A stretch of DNA of 64,000 nucleotides from an uncultured Candidatus Poseidoniales archaeon. GTDB lineage: Archaea > Thermoplasmatota > Poseidoniia > Poseidoniales > Poseidoniaceae. Below are positions 50,259-54,730 of this stretch, one piece after another. The notes beneath the pieces were generated by a model. It was not told where the DNA came from, did no database searches, and worked only from the letters and a program-made list of their open reading frames with translations. The position numbers and the translations under genes are program-made. Position 1 is the first letter of the stretch, and the number at the start of each line of letters is the position of its first letter. The stretch covers positions 62,001-126,000 of the forward strand of contig CAJIZC010000005.1 in assembly GCA_905181785.1 (NCBI GenBank), written 5' to 3'.

Positions 50259-50349
50259 CTGTACCCCGGCTCGATTGTTCAAAGACCGGTGCTGTTTGGT
50301 TCAACAAGGGGAAGTCTCTTTGAGAGTAGACACGCCCGCATTAAGCATG

Positions 50350-52317
50350 GAGAAGCAACGTTTCGCCCAGACATCAATCGCATTCACGGTCATCATCCTG
50401 TTCTTGATGATGGCTGCGTCAAGTATGATCACAGGAAATTCAACCATGATCGAATCCTCTGAAGCACCGACGAGCGCCCGTCAGGGCAGCCTTGATGTCG
50501 ATTGCAGTGGTTACAAATTCGAAGATTTATTCGATTACAACTACGCTGCCTTCGACATCAACATTGGCGAAGATTGGGCCACTGGACAAATGAGCGCTGT
50601 GGCTTTTGTCAACGGAAGCAATTCCGCAATTGTTCGAGAAAACCTCGATGAGCTGTTCGATGGCACCCCCGGCGGTAACAACTCTTGGATGAGCACGGAT
50701 GAACGTGAGGCTGTGCGAGCCATTGGACCGGAATGCATTGCTGACATGGACACGCGAATCGGCATGAGGGAGGGCTTGCCCCACCGTGGTGGCGTCGATT
50801 GGAACGATTTGGAATTCGTCAAGGATGGCATTTCGCTCGATGAAGTGAACCTTGTTCCTTCCAACCACGACGAAGAACGCGATTGCCAAGACCTCCTCGC
50901 TTCATCCGATTGCAAGGAAGTGCCAGTCACCATTACCGATGATTTGCAAATACACATGTTCACGAAAGAAGACGAAACTCACAATGTTCGCTTTGATCAA
51001 CTTCCCAACAGTGGGGCATCAAACTTCACCCTCGCTCTCAACGTGACCAACATGAGCAACGCTGGCTTGGTCCTCACGTTCCCGCAACTGCAAGGATTGC
51101 GCTTGGTCAATTCTTCAATTCAAGATGACAACGCAGAAAGCACCGCTATGCCGCTTCCAGAACCACAGTACCTCCCTGATGGACGGTTGAGGGTCATTCA
51201 AGAGGTCAGTTATGCCGCAAACGAATACCCGATTCTTCGCAACTTGTTCTTAGATTTCACAACCATGGCACCTGAAACGAATGAAATCCCAGAATGGACT
51301 GCTGATGCCCCTGTTGACGGAACAGTAATTCCCTTTAGCGCCGAAACACGGGATGTTGTGGAAGGCGAAATCACTGAACTTTGGGCAACCGACGACAGCG
51401 GATGGGCAATCGATTGCGTATTTGCGAACCAAGAATGGGTTGGACAGTGGACCACTGGATTGGATGAAGAGGGGAGCCTCTTCCTCGACGGCCCTGACGA
51501 CGTGGCACCAGACGCTCAAATCCAAGTTGAATGCAGCGTTGTGGATCCATTCGGAGCGTCTTCTATTGAAACTCGAAACTGGACCTTTGCTCAACCCTTT
51601 ACCTCTGAAGCAACCATTTCTGAATCTGGAGATGCTCTTGAATTTACGGTCACACCTACGGGTGTTGTGAGCGAAATCTCAATCAGCGCACATGCTCACC
51701 AAACAGCAACAATGGGTGAAATGAGGATGGCGACCGTTGCCGGTGAAGCATCGATGCTCGCCCTTCCTTTGGATGGATTGGCACCTGGGCCAGTTATGAT
51801 CATGGGCCATGCTGAATCAAACGGCATGCTCGACTACGCATTCATGCTTGACTTCAACTTGGAAAAAGCCAGCGCACCTCCGGTGATTGAACTCGAAGTG
51901 AACCTCGACGGCACCAACGCCACATGGGATGCAAGTTACCTCAAGTTCACCCTTCAAGGCAAGGTCTTGGACCCTGACGGTGAAGGCGTTGAAATGGCCC
52001 TTTCGCTGTGTGGTTATTCCACCAACGACTTTGTCCGATCCGGTGTCGTGTGGGAAATTGATGTCAACATTGTTTCCTGTTCATCCCAAAACCCACCTGT
52101 CACAATCTACGACATAACCCTCATTGCAACAGACGATTCCGGTACCATTGCCACCATGCAAGTGCAGGTTCCAGACCCATATGCAAGCACTGAGGAACCG
52201 GTCAACGATGAGGACGAAGTCACTGTCGAAGAAGGCTTGCCTGCAGTTTCCCTGCTCGCCACATTGTCCGTGGCTCTGCTCGGTGCTGCCGTGGTAAACA
52301 ATCGAAAAAAGCAGTGA
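50350..52317 (+). CDS. Large secreted, C-terminally anchored protein
   Basis: Signal peptide or anchor (SIAFTVIILFLMMAASSM), then about 600 residues of beta-rich extracellular domains including Ig-like ones (VDGTVIPFSAETRDVVEGEITELWATDD, split when quoted), with paired cysteines at wide spacing, and a C-terminal helix LLATLSVALLGAAVV ending in NNRKKQ after an acidic stalk. The end resembles sorting signals such as PGF-CTERM in layout, but the tripeptide is LPAVS. No enzymatic motif found. ATG 50350 fits the signal peptide; the frame is open to 50275. Confidence 0.75.
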   Translation, partial: EKQRFAQTSIAFTVIILFLMMAASSMITGNSTMIESSEAPTSARQGSLDVDCSGYKFEDLFDYNYAAFDINIGEDWATGQMSAVAFVNGSNSAIVRENLDELFDGTPGGNNSWMSTDEREAVRAIGPECIADMDTRIGMREGLPHRGGVDWNDLEFVKDGISLDEVNLVPSNHDEERDCQDLLASSDCKEVPVTITDDLQIHMFTKEDETHNVRFDQLPNSGASNFTLALNVTNMSNAGLVLTFPQLQGLRLVNSSIQDDNAESTAMPLPEPQYLPDGRLRVIQEVSYAANEYPILRNLFLDFTTMAPETNEIPEWTADAPVDGTVIPFSAETRDVVEGEITELWATDDSGWAIDCVFANQEWVGQWTTGLDEEGSLFLDGPDDVAPDAQIQVECSVVDPFGASSIETRNWTFAQPFTSEATISESGDALEFTVTPTGVVSEISISAHAHQTATMGEMRMATVAGEASMLALPLDGLAPGPVMIMGHAESNGMLDYAFMLDFNLEKASAPPVIELEVNLDGTNATWDASYLKFTLQGKVLDPDGEGVEMALSLCGYSTNDFVRSGVVWEIDVNIVSCSSQNPPVTIYDITLIATDDSGTIATMQVQVPDPYASTEEPVNDEDEVTVEEGLPAVSLLATLSVALLGAAVVNNRKKQ

Positions 52318-52377
52318 ATGCCGCTACCGGCACCCTCAAGAGGGAACGGTTGGCCCCCACAAACTGAGAGTGAGCAT

Positions 52378-53667
52378 ATGTTTGCAGGCACCGTCCAGTC
52401 GTTGAGCCACGAAGGTGGGCTCTTAGTGTCCTTTACCGGCTCCTCTCCAGCTTTAGAATCAATCATTGTCAACCTCGAAACTGGTGATTACATCGGTAAG
52501 GTTGACGCTGTGCTTGGCAGCACGAGTGCCCCTCTTGCACACGTTGCTCACTTGGACAGAAAACTCGACATCCCTGCCTTGGTCGGCATTGAAGTCAACA
52601 TCCGAGCAAAAAAGGTTCGTGAAGAGCGAAAATTTGGCGAACGGGGCAACGATCGACAAGACAGAGGACGAAATGATCGTGGCGGCCGATTTGAACACAA
52701 CGACCGCGGCGGACGCTTCGAGCGAAATGACCGCGGTGGTCGCCCAGACCGAAACGACCGTTCCAACGGTGGCGATTGGGACTGCCCCAAATGCCGAAAC
52801 AACAACTTCGCTTTCCGACACGAATGCAACCGATGTGGCGAGCCACGCGGCAACGGTGGCGGAGGACGTTCCAACGACCGTGGATTCCAAGGTCGCGAAC
52901 AACGGGCACCTCGATTTGAGCGAAACGATCGTCAAAACAACCGCATGGATGGCGATTGGGATTGCCCAAAATGCCACAATGATAACTTCGCTTGGCGAAC
53001 CGAATGCAATAAGTGCGGCGCACCAAAGGCAGGCGGCGGTCAAGGACGGCCACCCCGCAGAGACGACCGAAGGTCGTTCAACGACCGTGACAATCGAGGT
53101 GGCGACCGACGAGGTGGCGACCGACGAGGTGGCGACCGACGAGGTGGAGAAACATTCAACGACAACGATTGGGATTGCCCTCAATGCAACAACTCCAATT
53201 TCGCATTCAGACAAGAATGCAACCGATGTGGAGTTCCACGAAGCGGTGGCCAAAGTCGGCCACCACGACGCGATGACCGACGAGGTGGCGATTCACGAGG
53301 TGGAAGCAGTTACGGTGGTGGCGGCCAACGAGGCGGCGACCGACGAGGTGGCGATTCACGAGGCGGAAGCAGTTACGGTGGCGGAGGCCAACGAGGCGGC
53401 GACCGACGAGGCGGCGATTCACGAGGCGGAAGCAGTTACGGTGGCGGAGGCCAGCGAGGTGGCGACCGCAGCGGTTCCGATGACCGCCGTGGTGGAGACC
53501 GACAAGTTCGCAGTAACTTCGGTGGCGACCGAGGCGGGAACGATGGACGTCGTCCACCAAGAGAGCCACGAGAACCACGAGAATTTCGCAAAGCCCGAGG
53601 CAAGAGTTCGGGCCATGCCCACAACCGCCCACCACGCGACTTGATGGGACGAGATCGAGAAGATTGA
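52378..53667 (+). CDS. Gar1-like H/ACA RNP protein with RGG boxes and three RanBP2-type zinc fingers
   Basis: Residues 1-80 follow the Gar1 pattern (FAGTVQSLSHEGGLLVSF, DYIGKVDAVLGSTSAPLAH, IPALVGIEVNIRAKK), the H/ACA protein that helps pseudouridine-guide RNPs. Then a basic RGG/RGRND tract is interrupted by three zinc fingers at 133-158, 193-218 and 264-289, each W-D-C-P-x-C-x3-N-x6-C-N-x-C-G, exactly the RanBP2 consensus (Cys136, 139, 150, 153 in the first). These fingers bind single-stranded RNA in eukaryotic ZRANB2 and FUS. The last part has three 21-residue RGGDSRGGSSYGGGG units and ends RPPREPREPREF. Normal archaeal Gar1 has no such tail. ATG 52378 chosen from homology; the frame opens at 52318. 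Confidence 0.82.
   Translation: MFAGTVQSLSHEGGLLVSFTGSSPALESIIVNLETGDYIGKVDAVLGSTSAPLAHVAHLDRKLDIPALVGIEVNIRAKKVREERKFGERGNDRQDRGRNDRGGRFEHNDRGGRFERNDRGGRPDRNDRSNGGDWDCPKCRNNNFAFRHECNRCGEPRGNGGGGRSNDRGFQGREQRAPRFERNDRQNNRMDGDWDCPKCHNDNFAWRTECNKCGAPKAGGGQGRPPRRDDRRSFNDRDNRGGDRRGGDRRGGDRRGGETFNDNDWDCPQCNNSNFAFRQECNRCGVPRSGGQSRPPRRDDRRGGDSRGGSSYGGGGQRGGDRRGGDSRGGSSYGGGGQRGGDRRGGDSRGGSSYGGGGQRGGDRSGSDDRRGGDRQVRSNFGGDRGGNDGRRPPREPREPREFRKARGKSSGHAHNRPPRDLMGRDRED
53101..53145 (+). repeat. 15-bp tandem repeat encoding GDRRG units
   Basis: Three identical 15-bp units, GGCGACCGACGAGGT, encode GDRRG just before the third zinc finger of the Gar1-like protein. Confidence 0.8.
53275..53463 (+). repeat. 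63-bp tandem repeat encoding RGG/SYGGGG units
   Basis: Three near-identical 63-bp units (53275-53337, 53338-53400, 53401-53463) encode DRRGGDSRGG followed by SSYGGGGQRGG. They differ only by a few silent changes, a sign of recent tandem duplication. Confidence 0.85.
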
Positions 53668-53695: not shown

Positions 53696-54730
53696 ATGGG
53701 CGCTGAAGAACACTACCTTGACGCTGTTGAAGCCTATGATGAAGGTGACTTGGAAGCAGCATACGCTTCGGCAAAACTTGCTGTCAAAGAAGACCCACAG
53801 CATGTAGATGCATTGCAATTATGCGCAGAGGCAGCACTCCCTCCGAAGGGAGAAAGTCCGACCCTCAAGCAAGCCGCACAGTCCCTTTCCGCTGTCAAGA
53901 AGATCATCGCAATCGAACCAGAAAGAACCGCAATGTGGTTTCTTGGCGGCCGATTGCTAAGCGATGAACTGGGCTTGCTGGATGATGCCCTCGACTGGTG
54001 GCAACAACTTCGCCACCACATGCCCGATGAAGTTACACCGCTGGTTGAGCAAGCAACCTTGCTTGCAGACATGGGGTTGTACACTGAAGCTCGCTACAGA
54101 CTCGAAGCAATCACTGAAGAGAACATGGACGTCAGCGGCCAGCAATACGCTAAGATTCAACAATTACATTCGATGGTTATGTCCGCTTCAATGCAAGACC
54201 AAGCGGAATTTTTCAAACCATGGGAACGGCACCACAATGGATGGGGTGCCATCGAAATGAAGATGCGAAAACCTCCAGTCTCGGAGAGTTTCCTGTTCAT
54301 GACAACGACCGTTCCTGTTCTTTTGCTTGAGGTCGTTTTTTCCAACAGGTTTGTCGAGCAAGGGTGGGGCGGTTTTTGCCTCACCACCTTGCTGATTTTC
54401 GGTACGGTACTGTTTGGTATGCGGTTCAGCCGTAAGATCTTCAGAAGGGTGAATCGACCTGCATTCAACCTCTTGCGCGCAATGAATTTCGAAGCCTCGT
54501 CTGGCTATGTTGTGGTTTCTGAAGAAATACGAACTTCGGTGCTCTATGTCTACATCATGCAGCGAAAACCCAAAGCATGGCAGGAACGTATGCTCAAGAT
54601 CATCCAAGATAAAACCAAATTGCCTGGTGGATGGAAACAGACGCTTCCGGATTTCGACTCCCACATTGAGGAGATTGGCCATATTGAAGACGCCGATGAT
54701 GAGCAATTCGAGCCCTTTGAAGAAGAGTGA
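53696..54730 (+). CDS. TPR-like membrane protein
   Basis: The first about 170 residues are helical pairs with TPR-like spacing (DAVEAYDEGDLEAAYASAKLAV, PQHVDALQLCAEAAL, LTEARYRLEAITEEN-type), then two membrane helices (TTTVPVLLLEVVFSN and LTTLLIFGTVLFGM) and a cytosolic domain of about 100 residues with an acidic tail FEPFEEE. Such a protein may scaffold a complex at the membrane. It begins 28 bp after the Gar1-like gene and is probably co-transcribed; AAAGGTG lies before its ATG. Confidence 0.75.
   Translation: MGAEEHYLDAVEAYDEGDLEAAYASAKLAVKEDPQHVDALQLCAEAALPPKGESPTLKQAAQSLSAVKKIIAIEPERTAMWFLGGRLLSDELGLLDDALDWWQQLRHHMPDEVTPLVEQATLLADMGLYTEARYRLEAITEENMDVSGQQYAKIQQLHSMVMSASMQDQAEFFKPWERHHNGWGAIEMKMRKPPVSESFLFMTTTVPVLLLEVVFSNRFVEQGWGGFCLTTLLIFGTVLFGMRFSRKIFRRVNRPAFNLLRAMNFEASSGYVVVSEEIRTSVLYVYIMQRKPKAWQERMLKIIQDKTKLPGGWKQTLPDFDSHIEEIGHIEDADDEQFEPFEEE

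Follow-up and report, generated by a model that had tools for sequence, protein, structure and literature searches.

A Poseidoniales-specific form of Gar1 with a tail of Arg/Gly repeats and RanBP2-type zinc fingers predicted to bind RNA

The gene at positions 52378–53667 of the window (the whole stretch of 64,000 nucleotides of DNA that was analysed) encodes a protein of 429 amino acids which is very probably the Gar1 subunit of the H/ACA pseudouridylation ribonucleoprotein particle (RNP), in a form specific to Poseidoniales whose tail is inferred to make multivalent contacts to single-stranded RNA. The underlying machinery, the H/ACA RNP, is already known; the Gar1 variant is new, and its added function is inferred. 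The initial annotation of this DNA had regarded the combination of Gar1, RGG boxes and RanBP2 fingers as undescribed for archaea. In agreement with this, no description of an archaeal Gar1 with RGG repeats or RanBP2 fingers was found in open PMC text, the only literature covered.

Results

Gene structure and reading frame

Core, linkers and zinc fingers are encoded by a single unbroken ORF (Table 1). An in-frame ATG is located 20 codons upstream, at position 52318, and the frame is open that far; we prefer the start at 52378 because homologues align from the methionine at this position. No frameshift separates the core from the finger/RGG part, either in the source genome or in relatives, and an origin as a frameshift or fusion artefact is ruled out by dozens of loci in which core and tail share an ORF, among them those of CM001443.1 and of AH-273-O19, a record not labelled as a MAG in its title. 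The former (locus L123) is a 2.06-Mb single-record chromosome with the same one-ORF architecture. Chance can likewise be excluded because this architecture is kept in dozens of species and median dN/dS values of core and fingers are low.

Other frames contain long overlapping ORFs (392 amino acids on the plus and 264 on the minus strand), which were dismissed as by-products of GC-rich codon repeats. The repeats of the gene probably also break assembly and may have hidden it, many metagenome contigs ending inside the gene (loci L002, L003, L005, L007, L009, L015, L017 and L018).

Table 1. Features of the gar1 locus (positions in the window)
Feature	Position	Strand	Evidence or remark
Upstream neighbour, function unknown, no confident Pfam family	50347..52317	+	
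Gar1 core, residues 1–84, predicted small β-barrel	52378..52629	+	hhalign, AlphaFold2, PDB structural matches
First linker, Arg/Gly/Asn-rich, predicted disordered	52630..52770	+	pLDDT < 50; tandem repeats with a 27-base unit at 52668–52760
RanBP2-type zinc finger 1 DWDCPKCRNNNFAFRHECNRC	52771..52848	+	PF00641, E=1.3e-7 (genome search); pLDDT ~80
RanBP2-type zinc finger 2 DWDCPKCHNDNFAWRTECNKC	52951..53028	+	PF00641, E=2.0e-11 (genome search)
RGGD repeats, 15-base unit × 3.5, 100% matches	53095..53147	+	
RanBP2-type zinc finger 3 DWDCPQCNNSNFAFRQECNRC	53167..53244	+	PF00641, E=1.0e-7 (genome search)
RGG/SYGGGG tail repeats, 63-base unit × 3.1, 95% matches	53275..53468	+	
Conserved C-terminal motif FRKARGKSSGHAHNRPP, role unknown	53584..53634	+	HAHN motif count in Poseidoniaceae
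Downstream neighbour, weak TPR_19 match	53696..54730	+	

Assignment of the core to Gar1

Judged by profile comparison and predicted structure, the N-terminal core of about 85 amino acids is Gar1. Pfam alone leaves its match to Gar1 (PF04410) below threshold (16.6 bits versus a cut-off of 29.3; E=0.007), and NCBIfam gave no match for the protein; the Poseidoniales Gar1 is a form missed by standard annotation models. Elsewhere in the order, at least G189 exceeded the PF04410 cut-off (30.3 bits). When a family profile made from 39 orthologous Poseidoniales cores was aligned by hhalign to one representing ordinary Thermoplasmatota Gar1, the two matched over 77 columns with a probability of 97% (E=3e-11), the best of 60 column-shuffled controls reaching 6%. 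The glycine/valine motif of the core (G-K/R-V...V-x-G...P), in which hhalign aligned it with GRVxxIFGPVxxPY of canonical Gar1, is present, and G40, V45 and G47 are invariant in all 39 cores. With the AlphaFold2 model of the core (pLDDT 88.7) as query, the top three PDB matches returned by Foldseek were the archaeal Gar1 chains 2ey4_D, 2hvy_B and 2ey4_C (TM 0.74–0.88); eukaryotic Gar1 and Naf1 ranked lower by E-value, interspersed with ATP-synthase domains. Profile and structural matches thus bear out the Gar1-like N-terminus proposed by the initial annotation.

Two further matches of the core were rejected. Structure and profile favour Gar1 over the PEP-utilizers domain suggested by Pfam (E=0.004), and an archaemetzincin, the best PDB profile match (E=0.11), was taken as a chance hit that is weak and starts in an apparent expression-tag region.

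Naf1 shares the fold of Gar1, as reflected in a structural match to 2v3m, and the core diverges from Pfam Gar1. The barrel might therefore belong to a Naf1-like assembly factor or to an RNA chaperone acting outside H/ACA, the true gar1 having been missed. We consider this improbable in view of the Naf1 matches, which rank well below archaeal Gar1 (E of 0.1 versus 1.5e-4), and of the distribution of the core profile, which matches all genera; in the sister lineage f3, by contrast, the only Gar1 is a short canonical one. Moreover, no other Gar1-like gene was found in the source genome.

H/ACA partners and genomic context

Assignment to Gar1 is also compatible with the search for a second canonical gar1, a gene that would have spoken against it: PF04410 gave no match at E ≤ 0.001 in the source assembly, whose completeness is 79.75%, and no second gar1 was found in relatives, near-complete ones included. 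A second gar1 could reside in an assembly gap of the source genome, although the near-complete relatives show none. The source genome encodes a Cbf5 that scores 330 bits with the NCBIfam Cbf5 equivalog (cut-off 242), has archaeal Cbf5 as its best PDB relatives (E=1e-70) and contains the catalytic GTLDP and thumb-loop SAVK motifs. Nop10 and two L7Ae-family proteins are encoded as well. Together with the Gar1 core and the lack of any other detected Gar1, this set of partners supports the proposed membership in an H/ACA RNP.

The fibrillarin encoded by the same genome (239 residues) carries no such addition; extended forms are thus not the rule among the RNA-modification proteins of this genome. 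The upstream neighbour adjoins gar1 in 19 of 19 loci compared, representing both families of the order, and the downstream neighbour is kept in both families, too. Such conservation indicates vertical inheritance.

The Arg/Gly-rich tail

The tail comprises 345 residues, among them 74 Arg and 77 Gly, and has 18 RGG triplets and a net charge of +26. Of the 11 RGG-x(n)-RGG patterns in the DNA of the whole genome, 8 fall within this gene. AlphaFold2 predicts four ordered islands in the whole protein, i.e., the core and the three fingers, with disordered linkers between them. The long Arg/Gly-rich tail noted originally is thus a valid description of this protein; what is constant across complete copies is a strongly positive tail, its richness in Arg and Gly being variable. 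In 60 complete proteins of the order the tail is 65–448 residues long, and its net charge always lies between +16 and +41.

Most Poseidoniaceae copies terminate in a motif of the form FRKARGKxxGHAHN(R/K)xP, to which no family could be matched; its HAHN portion was present in 40 of 46 complete, N-free loci of this family. The motif may make contact with either Cbf5 or the ribosome.

RanBP2-type zinc fingers

PF00641 matched three stretches of the protein with 82.5 bits (cut-off 27; E=1.2e-23). The three W-x-C-x2-C...N...C-x2-C fingers recognized by the initial annotation therefore surpass the Pfam cut-off. Their D-W pairs are located at residues 133/134, 193/194 and 264/265, and all three PF00641 matches of the source genome lie within this one gene.

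A survey of 180 fingers from 75 loci revealed no variation at D, W, two N, R, N and four C, and only Phe or Tyr at the aromatic stacking position. The stacking Trp of ZRANB2 (identified in part from PMC6384913) is replaced by Phe in 96% of the fingers; according to a phmmer alignment, FUS also has Phe at this position. At the R19 position, where FUS has Trp, the fingers carry Phe, Arg or Trp. Finger 2 shows the FUS pattern (NFAWRTECN) and is the closest of the three to FUS (phmmer versus 6g99_B, E=1.3e-6). Overall, the best relatives are the fingers of FUS, ZRANB2 and RBM10, and the alignment and the survey substantiate the previously noted likeness to FUS and ZRANB2 residue by residue.

Across 66 pairs, the core had a median dN/dS of 0.041 and the fingers one of 0.025. 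The fingers are under purifying selection. If finger positions are assigned to the RNA-contact numbering of PMC6384913, an assignment only partly taken from that source, the contact positions D4, N14, R20 and N24 and an aromatic residue at 17 are matched in the 180 fingers. Fingers of ZRANB2, EWS and FUS bind GGU as tandem pairs with sub-micromolar KD; D4 is important for affinity, and the third base is read by two Asn residues (PMC6384913). Based on the invariant GGU-contact residues, the FUS-like pattern and the low dN/dS, binding of single-stranded RNA by the archaeal fingers is strongly predicted from sequence, yet not shown.

The RanBP2 finger family also includes protein binders, and some of its members bind ubiquitin or Ran. 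This leaves room for a model in which the fingers recognize a ubiquitin-like or ribosomal protein partner instead of RNA, and fingers of the ZRANB1 type showed no RNA binding in one study (PMC6384913). We regard such a model as very improbable here, given that D, W, N, N, R and N, including the RNA-contact positions, do not vary in 180 fingers, that the closest relatives are those of FUS, ZRANB2 and RBM10, and that the fingers are set in an RNP protein with RGG repeats.

It is also conceivable that the entire tail is a non-functional or near-neutral repeat expansion riding on Gar1. Its tandem repeats of 15, 27 and 63 bases, the wide variation in length (65–448 residues) and finger number, and the finding that the core of yeast Gar1 alone suffices (PMC7991803) would fit with that notion. 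A dN/dS of about 0.025 in the fingers, the invariant contact residues, the maintenance of the C-terminal motif and the invariably positive charge of the tail are hard to reconcile with it, and we give it hardly any credence.

Distribution, gain and loss

Matches to the core profile were detected in 258 of the 293 Poseidoniales genomes, in 33 of 35 high-quality ones and in all 22 sampled genera. Those that carry a name are mostly labelled as Candidatus Poseidoniaceae, Poseidoniales, Poseidonia or Euryarchaeota, the CM001443.1 chromosome being among them; one instance of the same archaeal protein (L178) comes from a locus labelled as an uncultured Rhodobiaceae bacterium, which presumably reflects a binning error. 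The core gene is nearly always present in single copy, and few genomes have more than one match. Two different Gar1-RanBP2 genes were found in the Poseidoniaceae genome G092 (L197 on G092:C37 and L198 on G092:C38), and two core matches each in G203, G376, G391 and G422. These double matches may represent paralogues, split genes or binning mixtures.

Complete Poseidoniaceae copies have 1–4 fingers, and those of the other family 0–3. Hence, the fingers are widely present in Poseidoniales, but they do not form a fixed set, their number ranging from 0 to 4 with two clades lacking them. In a tree built from concatenated neighbours plus the core, both fingerless clades are nested among fingered ones, one of them as sister to a fingered genus (support 0.998). 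Because of this nesting we read them as putative losses: the finger form probably existed already in the ancestor of the order, and fingers appear to have been lost in at least two clades, which kept a short basic GAR-like tail (65–89 Arg/Gly-rich residues with a net charge of +19 to +26). Loss in two clades also implies that the fingers are dispensable.

In the sister lineage f3, which belongs to the same class, and in other sampled Thermoplasmatota, Gar1 is short (mostly 74–105 amino acids) and devoid of zinc fingers, consistent with the earlier statement that other archaeal Gar1 proteins end soon after the core. One Thermoplasmatota Gar1 from outside the order (L113, G269:C105) has about 146 amino acids and lacks a finger; its basic tail, in part rich in Arg and Gly, may represent an independent short tail. 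PF00641 matches in the phylum outside the order were few and mostly weak; the only one over the cut-off is a RanBP2-like finger located at the C-terminus of an unrelated proline-rich membrane protein (L199, G210:C2:1000-5000).

Discussion

Gar1 binds the catalytic domain of Cbf5 without contacting the guide RNA, and the thumb loop as well as product release are under its control (PMC7991803; PMC4551948). Inferred from fold and family, the N-terminal barrel of the Poseidoniales protein would bind Cbf5 and work the thumb loop as in other archaea. The tail would act as a disordered, positively charged Arg/Gly tether with 0–4 FUS/ZRANB2-type fingers, each of which is predicted to take a GGU/GGN trinucleotide, and the RGG stretches should bind RNA less specifically. 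The H/ACA particle could thereby hold single-stranded pre-rRNA or guide RNA by multivalent contacts of its own. In the protein studied here, the three fingers, as GGU readers tethered by flexible basic stretches, might raise the local substrate concentration and slow the loss of pre-rRNA, helping substrates to find the guide pocket and to stay there. The nearest experimental analogue is yeast Gar1, whose RGG domains alter turnover in a hairpin-dependent manner, an effect interpreted in terms of contacts to substrate RNA (PMC8096250).

Perhaps the tail also clusters H/ACA particles on nascent rRNA and holds neighbouring particles together. Carried further, RGG tails and GGU-binding fingers would assemble the particles on nascent pre-rRNA into a condensate, a nucleolus-like arrangement that evolved independently and without a nucleus. 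We consider this extension unlikely on present evidence; condensate formation by the Gar1 tail is possible but lacks direct support.

A Gar1 with a tail inferred to bind RNA is not solely eukaryotic but occurs order-wide in Poseidoniales of the marine plankton. This contradicts a 2021 review according to which archaeal Gar1 homologues are without both GAR regions (PMC7991803). In this abundant order of marine archaea, Gar1 has acquired a Gly/Arg tail, apparently independently, in combination with FUS-type fingers. Poseidoniales thus offer a natural comparison series of proteins with 0, 1, 2, 3 or 4 fingers, including forms with a short GAR tail only. The short tailless Gar1 of sister lineage f3 completes this series for testing the use of an RNA-binding tail.

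Among known systems, archaeal Gar1 as studied in Pyrococcus furiosus (PDB 2EY4/2HVY/3HAY; PF04410) shares its core fold with the Poseidoniales protein (TM up to 0.88) and is likewise encoded by a single-copy gene in a genome with Cbf5, Nop10 and L7Ae-family genes. Unlike the P. furiosus protein with its chain of 104 amino acids, the Poseidoniales core is followed by an Arg/Gly tail of 65–448 residues with 0–4 fingers. A Gly/Arg-rich tail on a Gar1 core is shared with yeast Gar1 and human GAR1. The eukaryotic-type layout with RGG/GAR regions on both sides of the core is not seen here, however: the Poseidoniales tail is C-terminal only, the core starting at residue 1–3, and compared with eukaryotic GAR regions it is also rich in Asp and Asn and bears fingers. 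We know of no eukaryotic Gar1 with RanBP2 fingers. The role of the eukaryotic RGG domains themselves has been called elusive (PMC8096250). Since sister lineage f3 lacks the extension, the likeness to eukaryotic GAR-tailed Gar1 is best read as convergence and not as ancestry. With FUS/EWS/TAF15 and ZRANB2 the protein shares the finger sequence, the RNA-contact residues and RGG stretches flanking the fingers. In contrast to these proteins, it has neither an RRM nor a prion-like SYGQ domain, and its fingers are part of an archaeal H/ACA RNP subunit.
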